Shown piece by piece: positions 19,678 to 31,247 of a stretch of 42,600 nt of DNA; position 1 is the first letter of the stretch; each line of letters starts with the position of its first letter. Made by a program: the position numbers and the translations under genes. This DNA is from Salinivenus iranica (GTDB lineage Bacteria; Bacteroidota; Rhodothermia; Rhodothermales; Salinibacteraceae). The notes under the pieces were generated by a model, which was given only the letters and a program-made list of their open reading frames with translations, was not told the DNA's origin and ran no database searches. The stretch covers positions 1-42,600 of the forward strand of contig NCRB01000048.1 of assembly GCA_002894665.1 (NCBI GenBank), read 5' to 3'.

Positions 19678-20448
19678 TCAGAGGGTCTGGATGGCGTTGA
19701 TAAGCTTCTCGCGATAGGAGGGGCCGATGGGAATTTTTTGATCCCCGATCTGGAGCGCATCCCCGTTGATCTCTTCAATGCGGTCGAGGCGGACCAGGTA
19801 CGACCGGTGCACGCGCATGAAGGCGTCCGGCGGAAGCTGCTCTTCTAGGTCTTTCAGCGTGCTGTGAATCATGTGCTGATCGGCGACGGTCGACACCAGC
19901 ATGTAATCCCCCTTCGCCTCGATGAACTGAATGTCGGCGAGCGCCACGCGGACGAGCCGGTCCCCAACCTTGAGAAAGGCGTGTTCGGGCATATGATCTC
20001 GGGTAAACAGCCCGTCTTCCGCGTCCGGCGGGGGGGGCGAGGGCGAGTCAGTATCCGACGCACTCGTCCCGCCCGACTCCGAAGAAGAGAGGTCAGACTG
20101 CACGCGGTTGATGGCTTTCAGGAAGCGGGGATACCGTACCGGTTTCACCAGGTAGTCCGTCACGGCCAGGTCGAAGGCCTCCACGGCGTACTCTTCGGAC
20201 CCGGTAATGAGCACGACGGCGGGCGGGTCGTCCAAGTTCTCCAACAGCTCGAGGCCCGTCATTTTGGGCATCTCCACGTCGAGGAGAAGCAGGTCGACGG
20301 GGTGGGTGGTGAGAACATTTGCTGCTTCGATGGCCCCGTCGCACACGTCGGTGATTTGGAGAGCAGCGTGTTGTTCGGCGAACTCAGTCAGCAGCTTTTG
20401 AGCAGTGGGGTCGTCGTCAACGATGAGGGTGTGAATTGGAGCGGACAT
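19678..20448 (-). CDS. LytTR-family response regulator
   Basis: Encodes 256 residues. The receiver domain (1-115) has the acidic pocket Asp11-Asp12, phospho-acceptor Asp57 in LLLLDVEMP and Lys102 in YLVKPVRYP. A low-complexity Ser/Pro/Asp linker (about 118-145) leads to a LytTR DNA-binding domain (about 155-256; IQFIEAKGDYMLVST, FMRVHRSYLVRLDRIEEI). Such regulators bind direct repeats near promoters and often control surface or biofilm functions. No histidine kinase is adjacent; the nearest signalling protein is the Hpt-domain protein at 21226. Its position beside the secreted-paralogue array suggests, but does not show, control of that array. Confidence 0.92.
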   Translation of the reverse strand: MSAPIHTLIVDDDPTAQKLLTEFAEQHAALQITDVCDGAIEAANVLTTHPVDLLLLDVEMPKMTGLELLENLDDPPAVVLITGSEEYAVEAFDLAVTDYLVKPVRYPRFLKAINRVQSDLSSSESGGTSASDTDSPSPPPPDAEDGLFTRDHMPEHAFLKVGDRLVRVALADIQFIEAKGDYMLVSTVADQHMIHSTLKDLEEQLPPDAFMRVHRSYLVRLDRIEEINGDALQIGDQKIPIGPSYREKLINAIQTL

Positions 20449-20696: not shown

Positions 20697-21185
20697 ATGG
20701 CCGCACGTCTTTTTATTTCCCTTCTCGCGATAGGGCTTTTTGGAAGGGGAGTGCCCGTGAAAGCACAATCTGCGGCGGAGGCTCGTCACACTGTCACGAT
20801 TCGAGTGGAGGAGACCAGTCAGATTGAACTGGGGGAGGGAGCAGAACTCACGATTGATCGGGGAGGGACGGCGCGTGAGACCAGCACGTATACCGTTCTA
20901 ACCAACCGATCGGTCGCGCAGTCCATTGGCGCGAGCATTGAGGTTGAGGATCCGCCCGATGGCCTCACCCTTCAGGCAGAAATGCAGGCGCCGCAAGCGT
21001 CGGGAACGTCCACTGGGGCACAGATACTGCTGGAAGAAGGAAGTGTTACGTCTCGTACCCTGGTCGAAGAAATCGGACAGCTGTCCCAGTCCGGGCTCGA
21101 AATCACGTATGAGGCCACGAGCACCCCGGAGGTGTCGCCGGGGACGTACGCCATCAACGTTGTTTATACAATTACCGAAGAATGA
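20697..21185 (+). CDS. Secreted beta-rich paralogue 1 (putative fibre subunit)
   Basis: Encodes 162 residues. The signal peptide MAARLFISLLAIGLFGRGVP ends near VKAQ-SA. The mature part opens with a strand HTVTIRVEETSQIELG and has a middle Y-x-V-L-T-N motif (YTVLTNRS). It closes with LEITYEATSTPEVSPGTY and a final strand VVYTITEE. The same opening strand, middle motif and closing strand recur in six further proteins downstream, so this is the first member of a diverged array. The fold looks like a single beta-sandwich of pilin or coat-protein (DUF4402-like) type. No enzyme motif is present. The ATG at 20697 was chosen because the signal peptide starts there. Confidence 0.75.
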   Translation: MAARLFISLLAIGLFGRGVPVKAQSAAEARHTVTIRVEETSQIELGEGAELTIDRGGTARETSTYTVLTNRSVAQSIGASIEVEDPPDGLTLQAEMQAPQASGTSTGAQILLEEGSVTSRTLVEEIGQLSQSGLEITYEATSTPEVSPGTYAINVVYTITEE

Positions 21186-21225
21186 TGAAGGAGAGGGTCT
21201 TTTTTGTTCTTACGGTAGAATTGGT

Positions 21226-21681
21226 ATGAAAGATCACGCGTCAAGTACAGGTGCCCCATCGACCTCTGATTCCCGGGAGGAGAAAGAGGAGCCGATCGTT
21301 GCGCGGACGGTGCTGCGAAAACGAGCGGAGGACCTGGGGGAAGAGGAGATTGGGAGTCCCCTTCTGGTGGATTTGGTGAGCGGCTTCTTGGCCGATGCGA
21401 GCAATGAGATTCCGGTGTTGCAACAGCACGTGGCGGCCGGGCGCATGCAAAAAGTGGAAACCGTTGCGCATCGGCTCAAGGGGGGCGGGCGGACGGTGGG
21501 GGCGGAGGCCGTTGCCGCGATGTGTCGGGGGATGGAGCAAGCAGCCCGAGAGGGGAACGAAGAGCGTGTCCAAGAGGCAGTGGATCGGCTGCCGGCCTTG
21601 CTCGAGGAAACGCAGGCGGAGTTTCAGGAACTGATGGGGGAAAGCGTGGGGGGCGAGGTTCAGTCGGAGTCTACCTCCTGA
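21226..21681 (+). CDS. Hpt-domain phosphotransfer protein
   Basis: Encodes 151 residues. After a hydrophilic leader (1-40) the protein is helical and carries the Hpt signature AHRLKGGGRTVGA, with phospho-acceptor His82. Flanking helices such as LVDLVSGFLADASNEIPVL are typical of stand-alone histidine phosphotransferases that relay phosphate between hybrid kinases and response regulators. It is cytoplasmic. No kinase is in the window; the LytTR regulator at 19678-20448 is the only receiver-domain protein nearby and a possible partner. The start at 21226 was picked because upstream codons in the frame lie within the preceding gene. Confidence 0.82.
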   Translation: MKDHASSTGAPSTSDSREEKEEPIVARTVLRKRAEDLGEEEIGSPLLVDLVSGFLADASNEIPVLQQHVAAGRMQKVETVAHRLKGGGRTVGAEAVAAMCRGMEQAAREGNEERVQEAVDRLPALLEETQAEFQELMGESVGGEVQSESTS

Positions 21682-22050
21682 GGAAGAGTGCACAGTGGAG
21701 GAAGGCTCCGGGGGCGTCTTTCCGGTTGCGGTCGAGCGGGCCAAGGAAATAGGGGAGGGTCCGCTCGACAAGACACGGGGAGTCGAAGCGCCGGGAACGC
21801 AGCGACCGAGTGCTCCCGGGGGGAATCTCTTTGAATTCGGCGAAAGCAGTGCTGTGGAGCGTTTCCGCCTGTCTTCGAAGAGATTCCTCGACTCGGACGT
21901 CCTCCGTTGTACGTAAGAGGCGGTTGCCCTGAGTCCTGGACCCCTGGGAGGAACATGCGCCTGCAGATGTGGTGGCACCCCACATATTCCTCTGGAGGAG
22001 GAGCCTCCACTGCTCGTGAATGCTCTCATCGCGCTGGTTCCACCGTCCCT
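21682..22050. other. Repeat-bearing intergenic region
   Basis: No gene is seen. It contains a diverged copy of the dispersed repeat (about 21789-21820). A 10-base inverted repeat GGAATCTCTT / AAGAGATTCC (21822-21831 and 21878-21887) lies next to it with a 46-base loop. The presence of these between array members suggests repeated insertion or recombination here. Confidence 0.5.
21789..21820 (+). repeat. Dispersed intergenic repeat, diverged copy
   Basis: Contains CGGGAACGCAGCGACCGAGT followed by CTCCCGGGG. It aligns with the repeats at 187-225 and 22684-22721 through the shared AGCGACCGA core, but with several substitutions. Confidence 0.5.
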
Positions 22051-22617
22051 ATGAGTGGTTTTGCAGGCCTGTCTTGTGGCAGCCGTCCGGTGTTTTGGCC
22101 TGGACTGGGTGGGGTCCGATGGGCGTGGCAGGTGCTGGCGGGAGTTCTCGCACTGGGGCTCGGGGCAGGACTGGGGTCGGCGGCGTACGCCCAGTCGGGG
22201 CGGGCCGGGCAGACCCTCGATTTTACGGTGCAGAAGAGCACCTCCCTCGACGTCCACGGCGAACCGAGCCTGTCGCTTGCCCAACTCGGCGTGCCGCAGG
22301 AGACGGACGACGGGGCGGCCGCTTATTCGATCCAGACCAACACGGGAGAACCCCGGGACATCCGGGCGTCGCTGGACCAGGCGGTCCCGGAGGGGCTCAC
22401 CCTGGAGGCGTACGTGGATGCGCCGGAGTCAAATGGGAATAACGTTTCGTCTACCGGGTGGATGACCCTGTCGTCGGAGGAGCAGGTGGTGGTCGAGTTT
22501 ATTCAGAAGGCCGATGACGAGAACGTTCCGATCACCTACCGGGCAACGGCAACGCCGGAGGTTGCCCCCGATTCGTACGTGTTCACCGTCAAGTACACCA
22601 TCAGCAGTGCGAACTAA
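22051..22617 (+). CDS. Secreted beta-rich paralogue 2 (putative fibre subunit)
   Basis: Encodes 188 residues. A long n-region is followed by a hydrophobic core (VLAGVLALGLGAGLGSAAYA) with cleavage before QSGR. The mature protein has the family pattern: opening strand LDFTVQKSTSLDV, middle YSIQTNTGEPRDIRASL, a P-E-G-L-T-L-E-A strand, and the closing ITYRATATPEVAPDSY plus VKYTISSAN. The last codon and the TAA stop fall in the terminal inverted repeat of the MITE-like element that begins at 22613, so the insertion defines the present C-terminus. The start could also be an upstream ATG at 21955 or 21967; 22051 gives the most normal signal peptide. Confidence 0.72.
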   Translation: MSGFAGLSCGSRPVFWPGLGGVRWAWQVLAGVLALGLGAGLGSAAYAQSGRAGQTLDFTVQKSTSLDVHGEPSLSLAQLGVPQETDDGAAAYSIQTNTGEPRDIRASLDQAVPEGLTLEAYVDAPESNGNNVSSTGWMTLSSEEQVVVEFIQKADDENVPITYRATATPEVAPDSYVFTVKYTISSAN

Positions 22618-22856
22618 GTACGCCGTCAACTTTGTTTTTACAGGTGCGAGCGAACTCAAAATCCCTGAGGCAGGTCGCTTCGAGCGCAGCCCGGTGACTA
22701 TTCGGTCGCTTCGCTCCCAGCACAGTCGAGAAGCCTCCTTGAGCCTGGCAGCTTCGACGTGGAGATTTCTCGACGTTGCTCGAAATGACGTGCTGGATTT
22801 TCGGGATTTTGAGTTCGATTCGGCACCCAAAGAATTAACTTGACGAAGTACTTAGT
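22613..22856. mobile_element. MITE-like element with ~53-bp terminal inverted repeats
   Basis: The 244-base element starts ACTAAGTAC-GC-CGTCAA and ends TTGACG-AA-GTACTTAGT, inverted copies of each other. The inverted similarity continues inward to a perfect 15-base pair of arms, CGAACTCAAAATCCC (22651-22665) and its complement (22803-22817). No open frame encodes a transposase, so it would be non-autonomous. The centre carries the dispersed repeat at 22684-22721. The left end overlaps the stop codon of the preceding gene. I could not identify a clear target-site duplication, and the parent transposon family is unknown to me. Confidence 0.7.
22684..22721 (-). repeat. Dispersed intergenic repeat, copy 2
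   Basis: The reverse complement matches 187-225 with one single-base indel and one substitution over 38-39 bases. It lies inside the MITE-like element. Immediately downstream, TTTCTCGACGTTGCTCGAAA (near 22768-22788) is another short imperfect palindrome of the kind often scattered between genes in this phylum. Confidence 0.75.
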
Positions 22857-22922
22857 CGCGGGGCCGCCGGAGCGGTTGGCGGCCGGCCGTGTCGATAGTG
22901 TCTGCTCAATCCACGACGTGCC

Positions 22923-23426
22923 ATGGACCCGATCACCCGGGGACTTAGCATTTTGCTGTTGGGGGGCGGACTGCTCGTTGTGGGCCCGGGGGAGGCAGCT
23001 GCCCAGGCACGAGAGGACGAGGTGACCCATGAGGTGACGGCGCAGGTGCGTTCGTATCAGCACGTGAGCCTCGCCCCCCTCCCGTCCTTCGCCGCGGGGC
23101 CCGGCCCGCCCCGCACGGTCTCCACCACGTACTCGGTGGTGACCAACGACCCGGAGCCGCGGCGCCTCGTGGCTTCCGTGGAGGGCCCCACGCCCGACGG
23201 CGTGATGGTGTGGATTGAACTGGAGCCCCCGGAGGGCGCTGCGCCGGCCGGGGACGAGGCCGTGCAGGTTGTGGGACCGGACGCGGATCGCGGCCCCACG
23301 CCGCTGGTGACGGGAATCGAGCAGGTGTCCGCGACGGACCTCGACGTCCGGTACACGATGGAGACCACGGTGGCGGCGGACCCGGGGGACAAGCAGGTGC
23401 GGCTGGAGTTCGAACTCGTTCCGTAG
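22923..23426 (+). CDS. Secreted beta-rich paralogue 3
   Basis: Encodes 167 residues. The signal peptide MDPITRGLSILLLGGGLLVV ends near AAAQ-AR. The mature part opens THEVTAQVRSYQHVSL and has the middle motif YSVVTNDPEPRRLVASV. It ends LDVRYTMETTVAADPGDKQ with a last strand VRLEFELVP. It keeps the family layout but has lost the T-P-E-V and Y-T-I signatures of the closest members, so it is one of the more diverged paralogues. It starts 66 bases after the MITE-like element, which may therefore separate it from the promoter of the earlier genes. Function unknown; probably a structural subunit. Confidence 0.7.
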   Translation: MDPITRGLSILLLGGGLLVVGPGEAAAQAREDEVTHEVTAQVRSYQHVSLAPLPSFAAGPGPPRTVSTTYSVVTNDPEPRRLVASVEGPTPDGVMVWIELEPPEGAAPAGDEAVQVVGPDADRGPTPLVTGIEQVSATDLDVRYTMETTVAADPGDKQVRLEFELVP

Positions 23427-23480
23427 GGGAGGCCGCGAGTCTCAGGGAATCATTCGTTTCACATCTACAATCGCGTCGTG

Positions 23481-23957
23481 ATGAGTCTCGTGGGTCGAAG
23501 TGTGGTTGGGGGCGTCGTGCTGCTGATGCTTGGGCCGTTGGCCGCGCACGGGCAGTCCCTGCTGTTGGAGGGCGGGCCGCCCCAGCTGCAAATCGACCGG
23601 TTCGTGCCGGGGAAGACGACCGCGTCCGCCACCGACGCCTCGTCTACCCTGGTTTATACGCGGGCGTCGGGGGACGAGGAGCTGCCCCTCAAAGTGTCGG
23701 TCTCGACCTCGGCGCCGGGGCAACAGTTTGGCCTGGCGGTGGCGGCGGAGGATCCCACCCACGGCACGCCCACCGGCCCGGTGCCATTGCGCGACGGCAT
23801 GGCGCCCGCCGACCTGCTCCGCGACCTAACGCCGTGTGCGGAGGCGGAGGGCGCGTGCGAGGAGGAGACCACCCTCCGCTACCGACTGCGGGCGGCGGTC
23901 GAGGACGGGCCGGGGACCGACCGTCACGTGGTGCGCTTCACGCTTCTTGCACAGTAG
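23481..23957 (+). CDS. Secreted beta-rich paralogue 4
   Basis: Encodes 158 residues. The signal peptide MSLVGRSVVGGVVLLMLGPL ends near AHGQ-SL. Compared with its neighbours it lacks the clear opening V-T-I strand, but it keeps a middle LVYTRASGDEELPLKVSVS and a final LRYRLRAAVEDGPGTDRHVV-RFTLLAQ that aligns with the other C-termini. Two cysteines (TPCAEAEGACEEE) could form a disulphide in the periplasm. A GTG at 23478 directly before the ATG is an alternative start. It lies 54 bases after paralogue 3 and is probably cotranscribed with it. Confidence 0.68.
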   Translation: MSLVGRSVVGGVVLLMLGPLAAHGQSLLLEGGPPQLQIDRFVPGKTTASATDASSTLVYTRASGDEELPLKVSVSTSAPGQQFGLAVAAEDPTHGTPTGPVPLRDGMAPADLLRDLTPCAEAEGACEEETTLRYRLRAAVEDGPGTDRHVVRFTLLAQ

Positions 23958-23993
23958 GATCGCGCTGCGCGGGTTGGGTTCATCGAATGGCCT

Positions 23994-24056
23994 CCGGTTT
24001 CGTCGAAGCACGAGCGGGCTTCGTCGAAGCATAGGCGCACTCGTCGAAAAGGGGGG
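23994..24056 (+). repeat. Three imperfect 21-bp tandem repeats
   Basis: Units at 23994-24014, 24015-24035 and 24036-24056 share the core (T/C)TCGTCGAA-(G/A)-A, for example CGGGCTTCGTCGAAGCATAG. The third unit runs into a tract of nine G residues (24051-24059). The repeats lie in the 218-base gap between paralogues 4 and 5 and could be an upstream regulatory array. Confidence 0.55.
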
Positions 24057-24175
24057 GGGCGGTTCACAGAGGCATAACAACCCTGAAGGGGGGAATGGAT
24101 ACCCTCTATGCGGGAAAAAGACGGGCCATAGGCCCCTGCATCCCATACTCTCCTTCAAAACACCCTCGCCTCTTT

Positions 24176-24697
24176 ATGAAACGCATCGCCCTTCTCCTCT
24201 TCGCCGGCCTCTTCGGATTCGCCACGCTCCAGACGGCGACGGCCCAAGACGAGGCCAGTCATGATGTCACCATCGACGTGGCGGGTGTAAATGAACTTTC
24301 ACTCAACAATGATGGTGACGCATTAAATATTGATATCGGAAGCAACATTAATAGCTGGGTGTCTGGGGACGGAGATGTAAGCTACGCTGTTGAAACAAAC
24401 AAATCTGGTCAAATAATCGAGGCCAACGTAAGTAGCTCCAGTTTCTCAAATAATGGTGAACTCTCAGATGTTGGTTTAAAAGTAAACGCATCGCCTCCTA
24501 CCAACGCCTCCGGTGGGGAAACGATTCTCACAGACGTTGGTGACGGTGGAGGTACCGAAACTGTAGTGAGTGGCATAACCGGTGTGTCTGAGAATCAACT
24601 GGTTCTTGATTACAGTGCAAAAGTCAATGAGGATGTTTCTCCGGGTGAAGGAGGTGTGACGCTTACTGTTACGTACACGCTAACTTCGTCAGACTAA
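24176..24697 (+). CDS. Secreted beta-rich paralogue 5, A+T-rich mature domain
   Basis: Encodes 173 residues. The signal peptide MKRIALLLFAGLFGFATLQT ends near ATAQ-DE. The mature part is a very clear family member: SHDVTIDVAGVNELSL, then YAVETNKSGQIIEANV, a G-x-E-T-I-L-T-D-V strand, LVLDYSAKVNEDVSPGEGG and the last strand LTVTYTLTSSD. By hand count, 24301-24480 is 40% G+C (72/180). The signal-peptide segment 24181-24240 is 67% (40/60), close to the surrounding genes. This sharp change inside one gene suggests that the mature domain was acquired by horizontal transfer or cassette exchange behind a resident signal peptide. The gene is followed by a strong terminator. Confidence 0.78.
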   Translation: MKRIALLLFAGLFGFATLQTATAQDEASHDVTIDVAGVNELSLNNDGDALNIDIGSNINSWVSGDGDVSYAVETNKSGQIIEANVSSSSFSNNGELSDVGLKVNASPPTNASGGETILTDVGDGGGTETVVSGITGVSENQLVLDYSAKVNEDVSPGEGGVTLTVTYTLTSSD

Positions 24698-24749
24698 GTG
24701 GCTGAAATGCCTCAGGTCGGAAATTGACCGTCTCTCCTGGAGTCAGTTA

Positions 24750-24785
24750 TGCCTGGACGGTGTACGGCACCGTCCAGGCATTTTG
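24750..24785 (+). terminator. Strong rho-independent terminator
   Basis: TGCCTGGACGGTG (24750-24762) pairs perfectly with CACCGTCCAGGCA (24768-24780) around a 5-base loop, TACGG, and is followed by TTTTGTTT. The 13-bp G+C-rich stem with a U tract is the clearest terminator in the window. It separates paralogues 1-5 from 6-7. Confidence 0.92.
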
Positions 24786-24825
24786 TTTGGGGTCAGTAAT
24801 CGGACTGTAGGTGTCCCTCAACCAC

Positions 24826-25290
24826 ATGCGCCTCTTCCTTGCTATCCTTGTTTTGGGACTCGCCCTGGGGCTTGTGGGTAAGGAGGCCCTGGCGCAGGAG
24901 GCGGACGACCATCAGGTGACGATTGAGGTGGAGGAGATGAACGACATGGAGACGGGCGATCCTCCGCCGCCGGTGTCCATCCCCTCGGGCGGCGACGGGA
25001 CGGTCACCTCCGCCCTCACGGTGCGGACCAATGCGCCTCCCTCCAACCCGCGCACCGTAGAAGCGGACCTGGCGGAATCCCTCCCGGAGGGGTTTACCCT
25101 GGAGGTCGATGTTACGGACGATGCCACCGTCGACGGGCACATAGAGCTTGGCACCGAGCCCCAGGCGGTAATGGAAGATGTGCATTCGGTGGACAAGGAG
25201 TACACGCTCGAGTACAAGGCCTCCGCCACGCCGAAGGTGAAAACGACGGAGACCACCGCGACGGTGACCTACACGGTGAAGAAGCAATAG
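24826..25290 (+). CDS. Secreted beta-rich paralogue 6 (putative fibre subunit)
   Basis: Encodes 154 residues. The signal peptide MRLFLAILVLGLALGLVGKE ends near ALAQ-EA. The mature sequence opens HQVTIEVEEMNDMETG, contains LTVRTNAPPSNPRTVEADL and PEGFTLEVDV, and ends YTLEYKASATPKVKTTETT with last strand VTYTVKKQ. All family landmarks are present. A GTG at 24811 is a possible earlier start, but the ATG gives a better signal peptide. It begins 41 bases after the terminator hairpin region, so it must have its own promoter or depend on read-through. Confidence 0.75.
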   Translation: MRLFLAILVLGLALGLVGKEALAQEADDHQVTIEVEEMNDMETGDPPPPVSIPSGGDGTVTSALTVRTNAPPSNPRTVEADLAESLPEGFTLEVDVTDDATVDGHIELGTEPQAVMEDVHSVDKEYTLEYKASATPKVKTTETTATVTYTVKKQ

Positions 25291-25361
25291 CTAATCCGAA
25301 GAGGGGACACCCAGCAGATGGAGCCTCCGCGCTCCACCTCCACGAATTGCATATTGTCCTC

Positions 25362-25925
25362 ATGTCGTTTGTACGACCGTCCATGTGGTCCACGCTTCAG
25401 TACGGCTCCCGCCTGGCCGTACTGCTCGTGATGTTTGCCGTGCTGGCCGGGGGCGGGCCGTTGGCGTGGGGACAGTCGCAGAGCCAACAGGTGACGATTG
25501 GGGTCGACCAGGACACCTACTTTGCCCTCTCGGACGGGCCTGGCATCACGCTCGATGCACTCGATACATTCAAGGAGGCCACGGCCTCGTACACGTTTGA
25601 GAACACCATTTGCGGGCAGGGAAAGGGGAATGCATCGGGGAAGGAGTGCTGGAAGGTGGAGGCGAAAATCGAAGACGGAGACGCCCCGACCGGCATCACC
25701 CTGGAGGCGGAAATGGAGGCGCCGCCCACCCAGAAGCCACAGTTCAATGATCCAGAGTCGCACGGGCGCAAGCCGCTGTCCGAGGCCGACGACGTCCGGC
25801 TGGTGGAAGACATTGGCAATACCGAGCAGCAGGGACTCGACATCACCTACTGGGCCAAGGCGTCCCCGGAGGCCGAGCCGACGGAGCACGTCATCACGGT
25901 CGTGTACACCCTCTCGCGAATGTGA
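25362..25925 (+). CDS. Secreted beta-rich paralogue 7 (putative fibre subunit)
   Basis: Encodes 187 residues. A hydrophobic signal segment (LAVLLVMFAVLAGGGPLAWG) is followed by cleavage before QSQS. The mature part opens QQVTIGVDQDTYFALSDG and then ATASYTFENTICGQGKG. GITLEAEMEAPP recalls paralogue 1 (GLTLQAEMQAPQ), and the end LDITYWAKASPEAEPTEHV with strand VVYTLSRM is typical. Two cysteines (ICGQ, ECWK) may form a disulphide. An ATG at 25383 is an alternative start. It is the last paralogue before the Cys-rich protein and the assembly-like genes. Confidence 0.74.
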   Translation: MSFVRPSMWSTLQYGSRLAVLLVMFAVLAGGGPLAWGQSQSQQVTIGVDQDTYFALSDGPGITLDALDTFKEATASYTFENTICGQGKGNASGKECWKVEAKIEDGDAPTGITLEAEMEAPPTQKPQFNDPESHGRKPLSEADDVRLVEDIGNTEQQGLDITYWAKASPEAEPTEHVITVVYTLSRM

Positions 25926-26064: not shown

Positions 26065-26655
26065 ATGGGTTCGTCGTTTACAGATCGACTGGCGCGGGTG
26101 CTTCGGAACGTGGACGTTCGCGTCGAGGCGGGGGACGACGCCCGTCGCGTTGTGCTGTCGGGGGAGAACGACACCTACCGGTCGTCGTCCCTGTCGCCCG
26201 CCCAGGCCCGGGCGGTGCAGCAGGTGCTCCAGTCGCTCCGCGAGGCCCCGACCTCGCTCTTGCAGCGCCCTCGGAGCGACATTGTGGAGGCCTGCCGGCG
26301 CCAGCACCCCAACGTGCCGGGCGACACGATCCGTTCGATGGTCGAGCGTGCCCGCGCCGAATCGTGGACCGAGGCGGAGCTCAGCGAGGCCCTCGGGCGT
26401 ACGTCGCGCACCCAGGTGCTGAAGAAGCACGCGGCGGCGGACGTGTGGGGCGTGCTCGTCCTGTCGCAGCAGGACAGCAACGTGTGCCCGGCGTGCCGCC
26501 GGCTCGACGCGGTGGCCTATGCCATCGACCACGCCCTCGCGGAGCAGCCGCTGCCCCACGCCGATTGTGCCAACCGGACCTGCCGCTGCCAGTACCTCCC
26601 GGTTGTGCAGGAGGAAGATCTCTATTCCACCGTAGAGACGCGGACGGGCGCGTGA
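26065..26655 (+). CDS. Cys-rich protein resembling phage Mu F-like C-termini
   Basis: Encodes 196 residues with no signal peptide. The first 135 residues are mostly helical and charged. The C-terminal part has a compact cysteine/histidine set: Cys141, Cys144, His165, Cys168, Cys173 and Cys175, in D-S-N-V-C-P-A-C-R-R-L-D and H-A-D-C ... C-R-C. That C-x2-C ... P-x-P-H-x-x-C ... C-R-C layout resembles the tail of phage Mu gpF/SPP1 gp7-type head-morphogenesis proteins, where it reads C-x2-C-x-x-L-D-G and H-P-N-C-R-C. The rest of a phage is absent, so it could be a remnant or a domesticated zinc-binding protein. It sits between the paralogues and the chaperone-like gene. Confidence 0.6.
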   Translation: MGSSFTDRLARVLRNVDVRVEAGDDARRVVLSGENDTYRSSSLSPAQARAVQQVLQSLREAPTSLLQRPRSDIVEACRRQHPNVPGDTIRSMVERARAESWTEAELSEALGRTSRTQVLKKHAAADVWGVLVLSQQDSNVCPACRRLDAVAYAIDHALAEQPLPHADCANRTCRCQYLPVVQEEDLYSTVETRTGA

Positions 26656-26751: not shown

Positions 26752-27630
26752 ATGAGCAACCGACTGATGTCCCCGACCCTTGCGTCCTTCACACTTCCTG
26801 GTTCTTTTTTTCCCGTGAGCGGGTGCAGCTGGCGCTGGATTGGGCTGATTGCGTGCGTGGCGTTACTGGGCGGTTTTGTACACGACAGTCGGGCGCAGGT
26901 CATGGTCCGCAGCTCGCTGTCGATGGACACGGAGGCCACGCCGGGCGAGACGTATCAGGGAACGATTGAGCTGTACAATCAGGACGACACGCTCCGCAGC
27001 GCCGAGGTGTCGCTCCGGGACTATTTGTTTACGGACGAGGGGAGCACGCAGTACGCCGATCCGGGCAGTCACGAGCGGTCGAATGCGCCCTGGATTGAGT
27101 TTGGGTCGTCGGTCGTGACGATTCCGCCCAACGAGGAGACGGAGGTGCAGTACGAGGTGCAGGTGCCGGAGACGGTGGAGGGAGAGGCCCCCGTTGGGAC
27201 GTACTGGAGCATGCTGATGGTACGCCCGCTGGGACAGGGCACGGGCCCCTCGCCCGATCAGGGAGTGGCCGTCCGGCAGATCCGGCGCTACGGCATTCAG
27301 GTGGCGACCCACATGCAAGGAAGCAGCGGGCCGACGCTGGAGGTGCAGTCGGCCGGGGTAGCGGACGAAGAGGGCCAGCCCACCCTCAACGTGTCCCTAG
27401 AAAACACGGGGGCACGAATGGCGAGCGTGAGCGTGTTGCTCGAGTTGTACGACGAGGCGGGCAGTCTGGCGCGCGAGGAGGAAACGTCGAGCCGGCGCCT
27501 CTACCCCGGCACGTCGGTCCAGTACCAGGTTCCGCTCGGGGAGGTAGAGTCCGGGCAGTACGAAGCCCTCCTCGTGTTGCAACCGGATCCGGGGCAGGCC
27601 CGCGGGGTGCAGTACACGATTGAGTTATAG
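26752..27630 (+). CDS. Periplasmic Ig-fold protein, chaperone/DUF916-like
   Basis: Encodes 292 residues. A signal segment (RWIGLIACVALLGGFV) is followed by cleavage near DSRAQ. Two beta-sandwich domains follow. Domain 1 (about 50-165) contains PGETYQGTIELYNQDDT, WIEFGSSVVTIPPNEETEVQ and APVGTYWSMLMVRP, the N-terminal pattern of extracytoplasmic Ig-like proteins. Domain 2 (about 195-290) holds LNVSLENTGARMASVSVLL and ends in a strand YTIEL. The layout recalls periplasmic fimbrial chaperones and the DUF916 proteins of WxL clusters, and the next gene looks like its outer-membrane partner. I do not see the invariant chaperone Arg/Lys pair, so the chaperone role is inference from fold and context. 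Confidence 0.65.
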   Translation: MSNRLMSPTLASFTLPGSFFPVSGCSWRWIGLIACVALLGGFVHDSRAQVMVRSSLSMDTEATPGETYQGTIELYNQDDTLRSAEVSLRDYLFTDEGSTQYADPGSHERSNAPWIEFGSSVVTIPPNEETEVQYEVQVPETVEGEAPVGTYWSMLMVRPLGQGTGPSPDQGVAVRQIRRYGIQVATHMQGSSGPTLEVQSAGVADEEGQPTLNVSLENTGARMASVSVLLELYDEAGSLAREEETSSRRLYPGTSVQYQVPLGEVESGQYEALLVLQPDPGQARGVQYTIEL

Positions 27631-27677: not shown

Positions 27678-30600
27678 ATGTACATCGTTGGTGGGGGCTC
27701 CGGCCCACGACACGCACGCACTGGCGGGAGACGGGGCGGAACAGCGGCGGCGGGGCGGATTTTTGTGCTCGTGGTCGTCGCGATGGTGAGTGTGGGTGGG
27801 CCGTCGGCGTGGGGGCAGGCTCCCGCCTCCGACTCGCCGGTCCAGGTGGAGGCGGTGAGAGAATCGACCATAACGACCTCGCCGGGAGAGGCCGTCACCG
27901 CCCCGATGCGAATCGAGAACACCGGGGACACGAAGCGGCGCCTCCGGACGGAGCCTGCCCTGCCGGACGGATGGAGCACGACGTCGTCCCGGCCGGCATT
28001 TACGCTGGCCCCCGGGGAAAGCACCCTCCAGTTGCTTCGCATCTCGGTTCCGGCGGGTGCGTCCGCAGGGCGCGAGACGGTCCGGGTTCAGGTGGTGGAC
28101 ACCGCCGATTCCACCCTCTCGGCGTCGGCCACCGTGCAGGTGCAGGTGCGGGCCGTGCGGGAGGCGCGGTTGTCCGTGGCACAGGTCCCCCCGTCCGTCG
28201 GGACGGGACAGAGCTACGCCGCGACGTTTACGCTCACCAACGAGGGCAACGTGCCCCTGCGCCCCACGCTGCGGGCGGAGAGCAACCGGTCGGTGCCCCT
28301 CACCGTGGAGACGGCGGTCGATACGCTGGTGCCGCAGGACACCGAGCGGATTCGGGTGACGGCGCGCCCGGCCGCGGCCGACGAGGCGTTTGAGCATCGG
28401 ATTCGTTTCTACGCGGACCTTGCGCCCGGAGACACCACGCTCAGGACGAGCGCCACGACGGAGGTCATTCCGAGCGGGGAGGGCGGCGGATTGTGGGCGG
28501 GGCCGCGCTATCCCACGACGGTGCGGCTGCAGGCCTTTGGAGACCAGGCGGCGCAGGGCGGGCAGGTGGAGATCGACGGGGAGGGAGCGCTGGTGCAGGG
28601 GAGCGACCACACGGTCGACCTGTTCGTGCGCACGCCCGACCAGTCCGGGGAGGCGCGGTTTGGGCGCCGGAGCCGGTACCAGTTGGCGTACACCTCGTCC
28701 GCGTGGACGGTGCGGGTGGGAGACCACACGTTTGGGCGGACGCAGCTGGCGGAGCGTGGGCGACGCGGGGTAGGGGGAGAGGTCCGGTACCAGACAGGGG
28801 ACTGGACGGTCGGCGGGTACGCCCTCGGCGACCGCTTCGGGGCGTCGGACCGGCAGGGCAGCGCGTACGCGCAGTACGAGGTGCACCCTCGGGCGCAGCT
28901 CACGGGCAGTCTGGTGCACAACGATGGAGCGCGGGCCAACGGCACCCTCGGCACGCTCCGGGCGCGGGTAGAGCCGTGGGCCCGGGCCCAGGTCGATCTC
29001 GAAGCCGGCGGCGGCGAGGGGATGGACGGGTGGGGCGGGGCCTACCGGGCGGCCCTCCGCGGCGAGCCGACGTGGGGGGCGTATCGCCTTCGGCATCGGC
29101 AGGTGGACCCGGCGTTTCCCTCCACCTTCACCGGAGGCCAGCGTAGCTCAGCCGCTCTGTCGGCCGACCTGTCCGAGCATGTGGGGGTGAGCGGGTCAGT
29201 CCGGCGCACCGAACAGGACCGGGCCTTCGAGCGGACCTTCGAGTCGCGGTCGGCGCGCCTCGGGAGCACAGTGCGGGGGACCTGGGCGGGGGCCCAGTGG
29301 TCCCTCGGGGCCGACGCGGCGCTCGATCGACGCCCGCTCCGCGACGAGGAGAGCGTTCGGCTGCAGGGGGGCCTGCAAACGAGTCGTATTGGGATTCGAC
29401 CCACCGTGGAGGTGGGCCGGTTTGCGCCGAACGAGCAGGGGGCGGAGCGGGGGTATCGGACGTACGGGCTTCGCACGTCGGCCCAAGTGGGGGGGCAGCA
29501 GGTGGGCGGGAGCATCGAGTACACGGAGGCAGCGTTTCGAGAGGGCTTCGCGCGCCGGCCCCGCTGGTCGGGCGACCTCTCCACGCAGCTTCAGCTTGGG
29601 GACGCCGCCAATCTGCGCCTCCGCGGGCGATGGACGGAGGAGGGGCCGTTCTTGCCGCCCCGCCAGAGTGCACAGGCCGCATTGAACTACCAGCTGCCGG
29701 GCGGGCACGTCCTGACGATGGAGGCCCGCTACCAATCCTTTGGCGACGGGCAGAGTGACGCACGCTTCCGGGTCGGGTACACGGTGCCGGTGGGGCTTCC
29801 CATCGTTTCGACCCCGGAGCGGGAACAGCTCACGGGGCGGGTTGTGGACGCCGAAACGAACGCGCCCCTCTCGGACGTGCTGGTGCAGCTGGGGGCCTCC
29901 CGGCGCCTGACGGGCGACGATGGGTCCTTTTCGCTTCCGGTGCCGCAGGACCGAACGGCGTATCTCCGCCTCGACCTCTCGTCGGCCGGGCTGAACCGGG
30001 TGCCCATGCTGAACCTGCCGATGCGGGTCGATCCGGAAGAGCAGCGGTCGGAGCTCGTCATTCCCGTCAGCGAAGAAAGCATTCTGCAGGTCCGGGTGGT
30101 GAACTACGAATACGCGACGGCCCGGGCCGCCCTGGAGGGCGAGGACCCGGAGCCGGCCGGCGGGCTGGCGGGGGCGGTGCTTGAGGCGACGGACGGCACG
30201 GGGACGGTGCGCCGGCTGACCGGGGCGCAGGGCGAAGCCACCTTCGACGGATTGCGCCCGGGGACGTGGACCGTGCGGGTGCGGGAGGAGGGGCTTCCGC
30301 CGGACCGGGCCCCGGAGCAGTCCGACTACGAGGTGACGCTGCCCCCCGACGGTCGCGACACGTTGCGGGTGCGGATGCTCCCCGAGGGCCGCCCGCAGAT
30401 CGAGGTGGAAGAAGGAGGGGCGTTGACGAGAGGAGACACGTCGGAGGCCGCCCCCCCCGAACCGCAGGAGGAGCGGGACACGTCAGAAGATACGACGCGG
30501 GCTATGCCGGTTGACGTGGTGGCGGGGCCGTTTGCGGTGCAGCTCGGGGAGGCGCGGCCGTGGGCGGAGGCGCTGGAGACCGCGCGGCAGGTCCGAGACG

Positions 30601-31247
30601 AGCGTCCGTTCGTGTCGATCCAGCCTCGGCAGACGGAGGGGGAGTGGGCCTACCAGGTGTGGGCGGGCCGCTATCCGAACCGGCGGGCGGCGGAGCGGAC
30701 TCGTGATTCGCTGGAGGCGTCTGTGTCGGACGCCCGCGTGCTCGAGACCTCTGTCCCGGCTCCCTACGCGGTGCGCCTCGGGGCCTTTGCGGAATGGGAG
30801 GGTGCCCTTCGTATGGTTCAGCGCGTCCGAGACCGGGGCCTCCCCGTGGCCATTCATCCGAAGGTGTGGCGAGGTCAGGTTCTGTACCGGGTGTGGGCGG
30901 GGCAGTATTCGGACCGAGCGGCGGCCGAAGACGCCCTCAATACCTTCGACGCGGCCCCCGCGGATGCGTACGTCGTGGAGGGGCAAACACTGGAGAGGTA
31001 TGCCGTACAGGCCGGCGCGTTTAGTGCGGCCGAGCGGGCATTCAGCCGGGCGAGTCGCCTACGAGATGAAGGAAGGCAGGCGTATGTTCAGTCCGGGCAG
31101 GCGGACGGGCGGCTGGTCTACCGGGTGCTGATGGGGGCGTACCCGACCCGGGCGGCAGCCGAGAAGCGAGCCGATGGCCTGGCGGACGACGGATGGGAGG
31201 CCGTTGTGCGTCGGGTGGAGCACCGACCGGGCGCACGAGAGCGCTAG
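27678..31247 (+). CDS. Usher-like outer-membrane barrel with three SPOR repeats
   Basis: Encodes 1189 residues. Order: signal peptide (1-47, ending WGQ); NEW3-like Ig domain (about 57-155, ENTGDTKRRLR ... DGWS); second Ig domain (about 158-268, LTNEGNVPLRPTL); an Arg/Gly/Tyr-rich run of alternating beta strands (about 270-715) that I read as an outer-membrane barrel, containing WTVRVGDHTFGRTQL; a carboxypeptidase-regulatory-like domain (from about 716, LTGRVVDAETNAPLSDVLVQ); a second such domain (about 830-910); an acidic linker; and three SPOR repeats (about 950-1025, 1028-1100, 1107-1185), each with A-V-x-L/A-G and V-W-A-G-x-Y or V-L-M-G-A-Y. SPOR domains bind glycan strands lacking stem peptides. 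The barrel is not recognisably PF00577; 'usher-like' rests on order and neighbours. Its stop overlaps that of rodA. Confidence 0.72.
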   Translation: MYIVGGGSGPRHARTGGRRGGTAAAGRIFVLVVVAMVSVGGPSAWGQAPASDSPVQVEAVRESTITTSPGEAVTAPMRIENTGDTKRRLRTEPALPDGWSTTSSRPAFTLAPGESTLQLLRISVPAGASAGRETVRVQVVDTADSTLSASATVQVQVRAVREARLSVAQVPPSVGTGQSYAATFTLTNEGNVPLRPTLRAESNRSVPLTVETAVDTLVPQDTERIRVTARPAAADEAFEHRIRFYADLAPGDTTLRTSATTEVIPSGEGGGLWAGPRYPTTVRLQAFGDQAAQGGQVEIDGEGALVQGSDHTVDLFVRTPDQSGEARFGRRSRYQLAYTSSAWTVRVGDHTFGRTQLAERGRRGVGGEVRYQTGDWTVGGYALGDRFGASDRQGSAYAQYEVHPRAQLTGSLVHNDGARANGTLGTLRARVEPWARAQVDLEAGGGEGMDGWGGAYRAALRGEPTWGAYRLRHRQVDPAFPSTFTGGQRSSAALSADLSEHVGVSGSVRRTEQDRAFERTFESRSARLGSTVRGTWAGAQWSLGADAALDRRPLRDEESVRLQGGLQTSRIGIRPTVEVGRFAPNEQGAERGYRTYGLRTSAQVGGQQVGGSIEYTEAAFREGFARRPRWSGDLSTQLQLGDAANLRLRGRWTEEGPFLPPRQSAQAALNYQLPGGHVLTMEARYQSFGDGQSDARFRVGYTVPVGLPIVSTPEREQLTGRVVDAETNAPLSDVLVQLGASRRLTGDDGSFSLPVPQDRTAYLRLDLSSAGLNRVPMLNLPMRVDPEEQRSELVIPVSEESILQVRVVNYEYATARAALEGEDPEPAGGLAGAVLEATDGTGTVRRLTGAQGEATFDGLRPGTWTVRVREEGLPPDRAPEQSDYEVTLPPDGRDTLRVRMLPEGRPQIEVEEGGALTRGDTSEAAPPEPQEERDTSEDTTRAMPVDVVAGPFAVQLGEARPWAEALETARQVRDERPFVSIQPRQTEGEWAYQVWAGRYPNRRAAERTRDSLEASVSDARVLETSVPAPYAVRLGAFAEWEGALRMVQRVRDRGLPVAIHPKVWRGQVLYRVWAGQYSDRAAAEDALNTFDAAPADAYVVEGQTLERYAVQAGAFSAAERAFSRASRLRDEGRQAYVQSGQADGRLVYRVLMGAYPTRAAAEKRADGLADDGWEAVVRRVEHRPGARER

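Follow-up and report, generated by a model that had tools for sequence, protein, structure and literature searches.

Genes of the array and their kinship

The 42,600-nucleotide stretch of Salinivenus iranica DNA analysed here (contig NCRB01000048.1, positions 1 to 42,600; hereafter the window) contains an array of seven genes, p1 to p7, whose products are small secreted proteins and, as we argue below, likely pilus subunits. All seven open reading frames (ORFs) lie on the + strand and encode a signal peptide (cleavage A-x-A/G before Q) and a domain of about 130-150 residues: p1 (20697-21185), a pilin-like protein with the N-terminal extension HTVTIRV; p2 (22051-22617, the start codon being uncertain between 22051, 22090 and 22132); p3 (22923-23426); p4 (23481-23957), of an extension-less class; p5 (24176-24697), AT-rich and hypervariable; p6 (24826-25290); and p7 (25383-25925). 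Two cysteines each are present in p4 and p7, and none in p1, p2, p3, p5 and p6. The array is interrupted between p1 and p2 by an HPt-domain gene (21226-21681), and the functional unit reaches beyond it, downstream to position 31247, with a chaperone candidate and an usher candidate located about 1-6 kb downstream of the array.

In Smith-Waterman alignments compared with 500 shuffles, each pair among p1, p2, p3, p5, p6 and p7 was related (z = 4.1 to 24, p <= 0.004); p4 was not significantly similar to the other six, save marginally to p5 (z 2.5, p 0.03). A profile of the six members without p4 picked up only two more sites in the genome, both weak, one of them p4 (E 0.12). However, a window-independent profile, built solely from arrays of other organisms, matched all seven subunits, with p4 first (1.9e-25), followed by p2 (1.2e-19), p6 (3e-19), p1 (1e-18), p5 (6e-15), and p7 and p3 (3e-11 each). 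Because p4 is not significantly similar in pairwise comparison yet is the best match of the outside profile, these sequence comparisons place p1 to p7 in one family, with p4 on another branch and not merely a more diverged copy.

An earlier note on this DNA had described an array of seven secreted paralogues, with p3 and p4 as the more diverged copies and with nearly interchangeable C-terminal ends in p1, p2, p5, p6 and p7. The array is borne out by the signal peptides, by the six members related above shuffles and, for p4, by the outside profile. The shared terminal motifs are present in p1, p2, p6 and p7, but the end of p5 (LDYSAKVNEDV) is less similar; and p4 belongs to a separate branch, while p3 falls inside the p1/p2/p6/p7 clade of the tree described below. 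A search of the array for tandem repeats or recent DNA duplications revealed none, just patches of 20-40 nt at corresponding protein positions. None of 79 subunits matched a coherent family in Pfam or NCBIfam, and the subunit profile, searched against PDB sequences, gave phage coat and adhesion matches at chance level only.

Chaperone and usher candidates

The first of the two downstream genes (26752-27630, + strand) encodes a two-domain secreted protein related to WxLIP, our chaperone candidate. In single-member searches its matches to the Pfam WxLIP_HBD/PGBD families lay below the curated cut-offs. The profile of its family matched the Enterococcus faecium WxLIP1 structures 9i25/9i1y (E 1.3e-7, profile positions 42-259), and by this profile the kinship spans both domains. 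The protein is 93% identical in Salinivenus lutea (locus L002). WxLIPs have been reported to bind partner WxL proteins (PMC10599100), and WxL clusters pair a WxLIP with small secreted beta-domains (PMC10599100, PMC9772566). The WxL domain itself (PF13731) had no match at E <= 10 in the window's genome, with a Lactococcus control matching (genome-wide statements here derive from searches of genomes by sequence or profile), and the subunits were therefore rejected as WxL-domain homologues. A profile comparison between the subunits and the chaperone candidate also gave no match, so there is no detectable sign that one arose as a duplicate of the other.

The second gene (27678-31247, + strand) encodes a usher-like outer-membrane protein of 1189 aa in which Pfam and a structural model identified two immunoglobulin (Ig)-like domains (NEW3/HYDIN-like), a barrel of about 26 strands, CarboxypepD_reg and three SPOR domains. 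In the model (predicted local distance difference test score, pLDDT, 85), the strands lie at fragment residues 230-654, with the Ig-like pair on the N-terminal side, two CarboxypepD_reg domains on the C-terminal side and no plug-sized insertion seen. Foldseek ranked FimD (E 9e-13) and PapC first, with a range of 9e-13 to 5e-11. In VIA-align, whose lists were second looks in which a missing family carries no meaning, MtrB (Z 21.5 over 401 residues) stood above PapC (17.7 over 445) and FimD (16.9). The three SPOR repeats, with a spacing of 234 bp, close the C-terminal part; SPOR is present in just 9 of 25 homologues, so a link to peptidoglycan appears to be optional.

In two loci of the window's class, L059 and L061, there is a 3-bp overlap between a distant WxLIP-like gene and the gene for an outer-membrane protein of at least 468 aa, the middle of which resembles, by eye, a usher plug domain (RYPIEGNVPAQSEVELYLNNRLV...), and in L059 a secreted subunit is encoded upstream of this gene pair. 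The 468-aa partner protein of L061 had no match among PDB sequences. From its sequence, the pair is a possible intermediate between the system described here and classical ushers.

Subunit fold and subunit classes

In the model of p1 (pLDDT 96), residues 1-17 form no strand and lie outside the sheets of the protein. Its best matches were mostly donor-strand-complemented proteins (CfaB, FimF, FimG, FimA, the pilin domain of PapG, and CanA), and it also resembled the Pyrobaculum calidifontis bundling pili and the Sulfolobus 0406 filament, both archaeal strand-exchange filaments. The weight of this model-based evidence is in the consistency of the match list, the single scores being modest.

We found that the subunits fall into two groups, one whose N-terminus is extended by about 14-17 residues, usually (T/H)xVTVxV, and one without such an extension, the latter comprising two classes that begin directly at the first core strand. 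An alternating hydrophobic pattern was present at the N-terminus of 50 of the 55 extension-bearing subunits, versus 10.5 (maximum 20) in shuffles. Specifically, p4 has 0 residues before the core and scored 88 bits with the profile of class D versus 54 bits with that of the extension-bearing class. There is usually one extension-less gene per locus, and the gene nearest to that of the chaperone candidate belonged to an extension-less class in 31 of 43 loci, or in 28 of 40 once duplicate genomes were set aside. Only the tip subunit of classical pili can dispense with the extension, as do the single-domain tips of Saf and Afa fibres. Since p4 lacks the extension, it is by this analogy likely to be the tip subunit.

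Conservation of the gene set

Loci with a WxLIP-like gene were located in Bacteroidota, Ignavibacteriota, Planctomycetota, Verrucomicrobiota, Armatimonadota, Zixibacteria, Thermodesulfobacteriota, Myxococcota and Thiohalocapsa, several of them in metagenome bins for which single taxon assignments may be wrong; within the window's phylum, 31 of 296 sampled genomes carried the gene. A usher-like ORF was present 3' of the WxLIP-like ORF, on the same strand and within about 250 bp (often with a 3-bp overlap), in 44 of 61 loci, a few of which represent one genome counted twice. Subunit genes lay just upstream of the WxLIP-like gene in most loci with enough flank, and a usher-sized barrel gene was linked to the subunits in nearly all subunit-bearing loci. 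Subunits, chaperone candidate and usher candidate are thus encoded together, and this gene set was found again in Bacteroidota, Ignavibacteria, Planctomycetota, Verrucomicrobiota, Armatimonadota, Zixibacteria, Thermodesulfobacteriota and Gammaproteobacteria. In the open-access literature on WxLIP in diderms, non-classical ushers and Salinibacter pili, we found no description of such a system.

Four Chlorobi-type loci (L026, L029, L043 and L047) encode a WxLIP-like protein with neither usher nor subunit genes; its gene is flanked upstream by one for a response regulator and downstream by a deacetylase-like gene, pointing to a different use of the fold.

Evolution within the genus

The WxLIP-like gene is present in 3 of the 13 genomes of the genus. 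The genome of the window is close to S. lutea, and p1 to p5 and the chaperone and barrel genes are colinear in S. lutea (with a contig break inside p2) and in a second relative, G314. Missing in S. lutea are p6, p7 and a phage Mu F-like gene that follows them; a 40-bp p6-like stretch, a possible remnant, and the 3' end of the Mu F-like gene persist, suggesting that the region was lost by deletion in that species. In a quick tree of the subunits, for which the only supports are from the Shimodaira-Hasegawa-like approximate likelihood ratio test (SH-aLRT), p1, p2, p3, p6 and p7 formed one clade with p1-p3 of G314 (SH-aLRT 95), p5 clustered with the p5 proteins of two sister species (86), and p4 joined the extension-less class from Ignavibacteria/Bacteroidota and other genomes of the same order (96). 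By this tree, p1, p2, p3, p6 and p7 are a lineage-specific expansion; diversification by duplication, as proposed in the earlier note, therefore applies to these five, but not to p4 and p5.

Between the window and S. lutea, the ratio of nonsynonymous to synonymous substitution rates (dN/dS) was 0.19-0.34 for p1-p4, 0.18 for the chaperone candidate and 0.30 for the barrel protein, values that place p1-p4 under purifying selection between the sister species. Subunit p5 behaved differently. Its signal peptide is identical to that of S. lutea p5 at 21 of 24 positions and its mature domain at 47 of 154; its synonymous sites are saturated, versus a synonymous divergence (dS) of 0.05-0.4 in its neighbours; and DNA similarity to S. 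lutea stops at 24279, just inside the mature part. The GC content at third codon positions is 0.46 in p5 (0.50 in S. lutea p5) versus about 0.8. In addition, p5 is followed by a strong hairpin resembling an intrinsic terminator (24749-24781, + strand; 15 pairs, z -5.7), which is 94% conserved in S. lutea. With a terminator of its own, a conserved signal peptide and a mature domain that was replaced from one sister species to the other, p5 is the probable main variable subunit, and an AT-rich, replaced, terminator-bearing gene is consistent with a highly expressed, exchangeable main subunit. The surface-antigen variation suggested earlier thus fits p5 only, and the rate test gave no sign of general diversifying selection, p1-p4 being under purifying selection and p1-p5 colinear in two relatives.

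A proposed chaperone-usher-like pilus and alternative explanations

Based on gene content and structural models, we consider it likely that p1 to p7 are the subunits of a pilus or fibrillum on the cell surface, made by a chaperone-usher-like pathway; the chaperone and usher-like genes, which the earlier note had missed, most likely give the array its function. Each subunit would be exported by Sec, as its signal peptide indicates, and would fold as an Ig-like sandwich, with the N-terminal strand (HTVTIRV-type, alternating hydrophobic) left unpaired in its own fold and completing the groove of a neighbour by donor-strand exchange. The WxLIP-related protein would hold the subunits in the periplasm, and the barrel protein may serve as the exit pore, held to peptidoglycan by its SPOR domains. 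Lacking the N-terminal strand, p4 would start the fibre as its tip; p5 would be the main, variable shaft subunit, and p1, p2, p3, p6 and p7, the products of the local expansion, may represent minor or alternative subunits.

With the chaperone-usher pili (type 1 Fim, P Pap, CFA/I and archaic Csu/CupE), this locus shares Ig-like secreted subunits that are extended at the N-terminus, a periplasmic protein of two domains, and a large barrel in the outer membrane with periplasmic domains on either side, and both subunit and barrel find their best fold matches there. Several observations, however, weigh against this assignment. PapD families (PF00345/PF02753) were matched at E <= 0.01 by 0 of 42 WxLIP-like family members, and PF00345 matched nothing in the genome at E <= 10, with an E. 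coli control matching; Usher (PF00577) had no match at E <= 1 in the 13 genomes of the genus, again with a matching E. coli control, and none among 25 homologues of the barrel protein; and the subunits had no fimbrial or spore-coat-U match in Pfam. The barrel has about 26 strands and no obvious plug, as opposed to the classical 24 with a plug, carries CarboxypepD_reg, NEW3 and SPOR domains, and has a whole-protein template modelling (TM) score to FimD of only about 0.3. The fold matches of p1 are weak in absolute terms (Foldseek E about 1e-3, TM <= 0.48, and Z 6-8.8, a range for which the tool warns of a possible common arrangement), and in this genus p4 is located mid-array instead of adjoining the chaperone gene as elsewhere. 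Since there is no sequence match to the PapD or Usher families, we do not claim homology to the classical pathway, nor do we class the system as a member, although it appears to work like a chaperone-usher pilus; we conclude from the sequences that its putative chaperone belongs to a different family.

Fold resemblance to the subunits also extends to donor-strand filaments independent of an usher, such as TasA, the archaeal thread, bundling pili and CanA cannulae (for p1, CanA Z 8.8, the 0406 filament 6.8, and TasA at 3e-3 in Foldseek), but filaments of the TasA/CanA type assemble without a dedicated outer-membrane pore, and here a gene for a usher-sized barrel, the putative pore, is present in nearly every subunit-bearing locus. 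Among other explanations, a diderm counterpart of the Gram-positive WxL/WxLIP (DUF916-DUF3324) surface complex, in which the subunits form a static, unpolymerised adhesive coat anchored to peptidoglycan via the WxLIP-like protein, would agree with the kinship over both domains of that protein, with the small secreted beta-domains that WxL clusters likewise combine with a WxLIP (PMC10599100, PMC9772566), and with the peptidoglycan link suggested by SPOR. We nevertheless regard it as unlikely, given that the genome has no WxL-domain match, that the co-conserved partner is a usher-sized outer-membrane barrel, and that the best subunit folds are mostly those of strand-exchanging filament subunits. 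The locus also differs from the Gram-positive clusters in its diderm host and in having an outer-membrane barrel in place of the cell-wall attachment. Still less probable are surface paralogues diversifying for antigenicity or as phage receptors without a common assembly machine: the local expansion, the replacement of the p5 mature domain and the variable presence of p6 and p7 would suit them, but the purifying selection and colinearity of p1-p4 and the tight linkage with chaperone and barrel genes kept across phyla argue otherwise. That the barrel moves other cargo in or out, as an MtrB-like conduit with the small proteins as periplasmic accessories, is very improbable despite the first rank of MtrB in VIA-align, since we saw no gene for a cytochrome among the annotated neighbours, FimD and PapC came first in Foldseek, and the small subunits carry pilin-like N-terminal strands and are co-conserved with the WxLIP-like protein.

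For the chaperone-usher-like pilus, we slightly favour the broader view that it represents a widespread class of pilus assembly in diderms, found in eight or more phyla, where the PapD chaperone is replaced by a WxLIP-type protein and the usher by a barrel of about 26 strands. If so, many phyla seemingly devoid of chaperone-usher pili (the whole genus had no Usher match) would carry a parallel system, overlooked by annotation because neither Pfam nor NCBIfam has a coherent family for its subunits; a role would emerge for WxLIP-type proteins, which are widespread and of unclear mechanism; p5 would stand out as the probable variable subunit on the surface of a hypersaline bacterium; and Gram-positive WxL/WxLIP complexes and Gram-negative chaperone-usher pili would be joined in one evolutionary picture.

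Probable regulators and surroundings

Divergent from the array lies a gene for a LytTR-type response regulator (19678-20448, - strand; Pfam Response_reg 1e-20, LytTR 5e-20), which has an orthologue in S. lutea and gave no match at E <= 1e-40 in the remaining 11 genomes of the genus. The HPt phosphotransfer protein encoded inside the array on the + strand (Pfam Hpt 2.4e-16) is 88% identical in S. lutea. These two proteins probably control expression of the array. The island is flanked by uvrA before it and by a RodA-type gene and PBP2 after it; the uvrA-rodA interval was also read in two other members of the genus, where it contains only what we take to be an ammonium-transporter-like gene.

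Between p7 and the chaperone candidate, a gene of 196 aa (26065-26655) encodes a product with a CxxC-rich end that is weakly similar to phage Mu protein F (Pfam 0.005; PHROG head morphogenesis 0.02). It was rejected as a part of the system, being Mu F-like, reduced to its 3' end in S. lutea and unseen in other loci. The intergenic regions 22618-22922 and 21682-21906 contain repeated GGTCGCTTCG-like words (22673-22726), resembling dispersed repeat elements.

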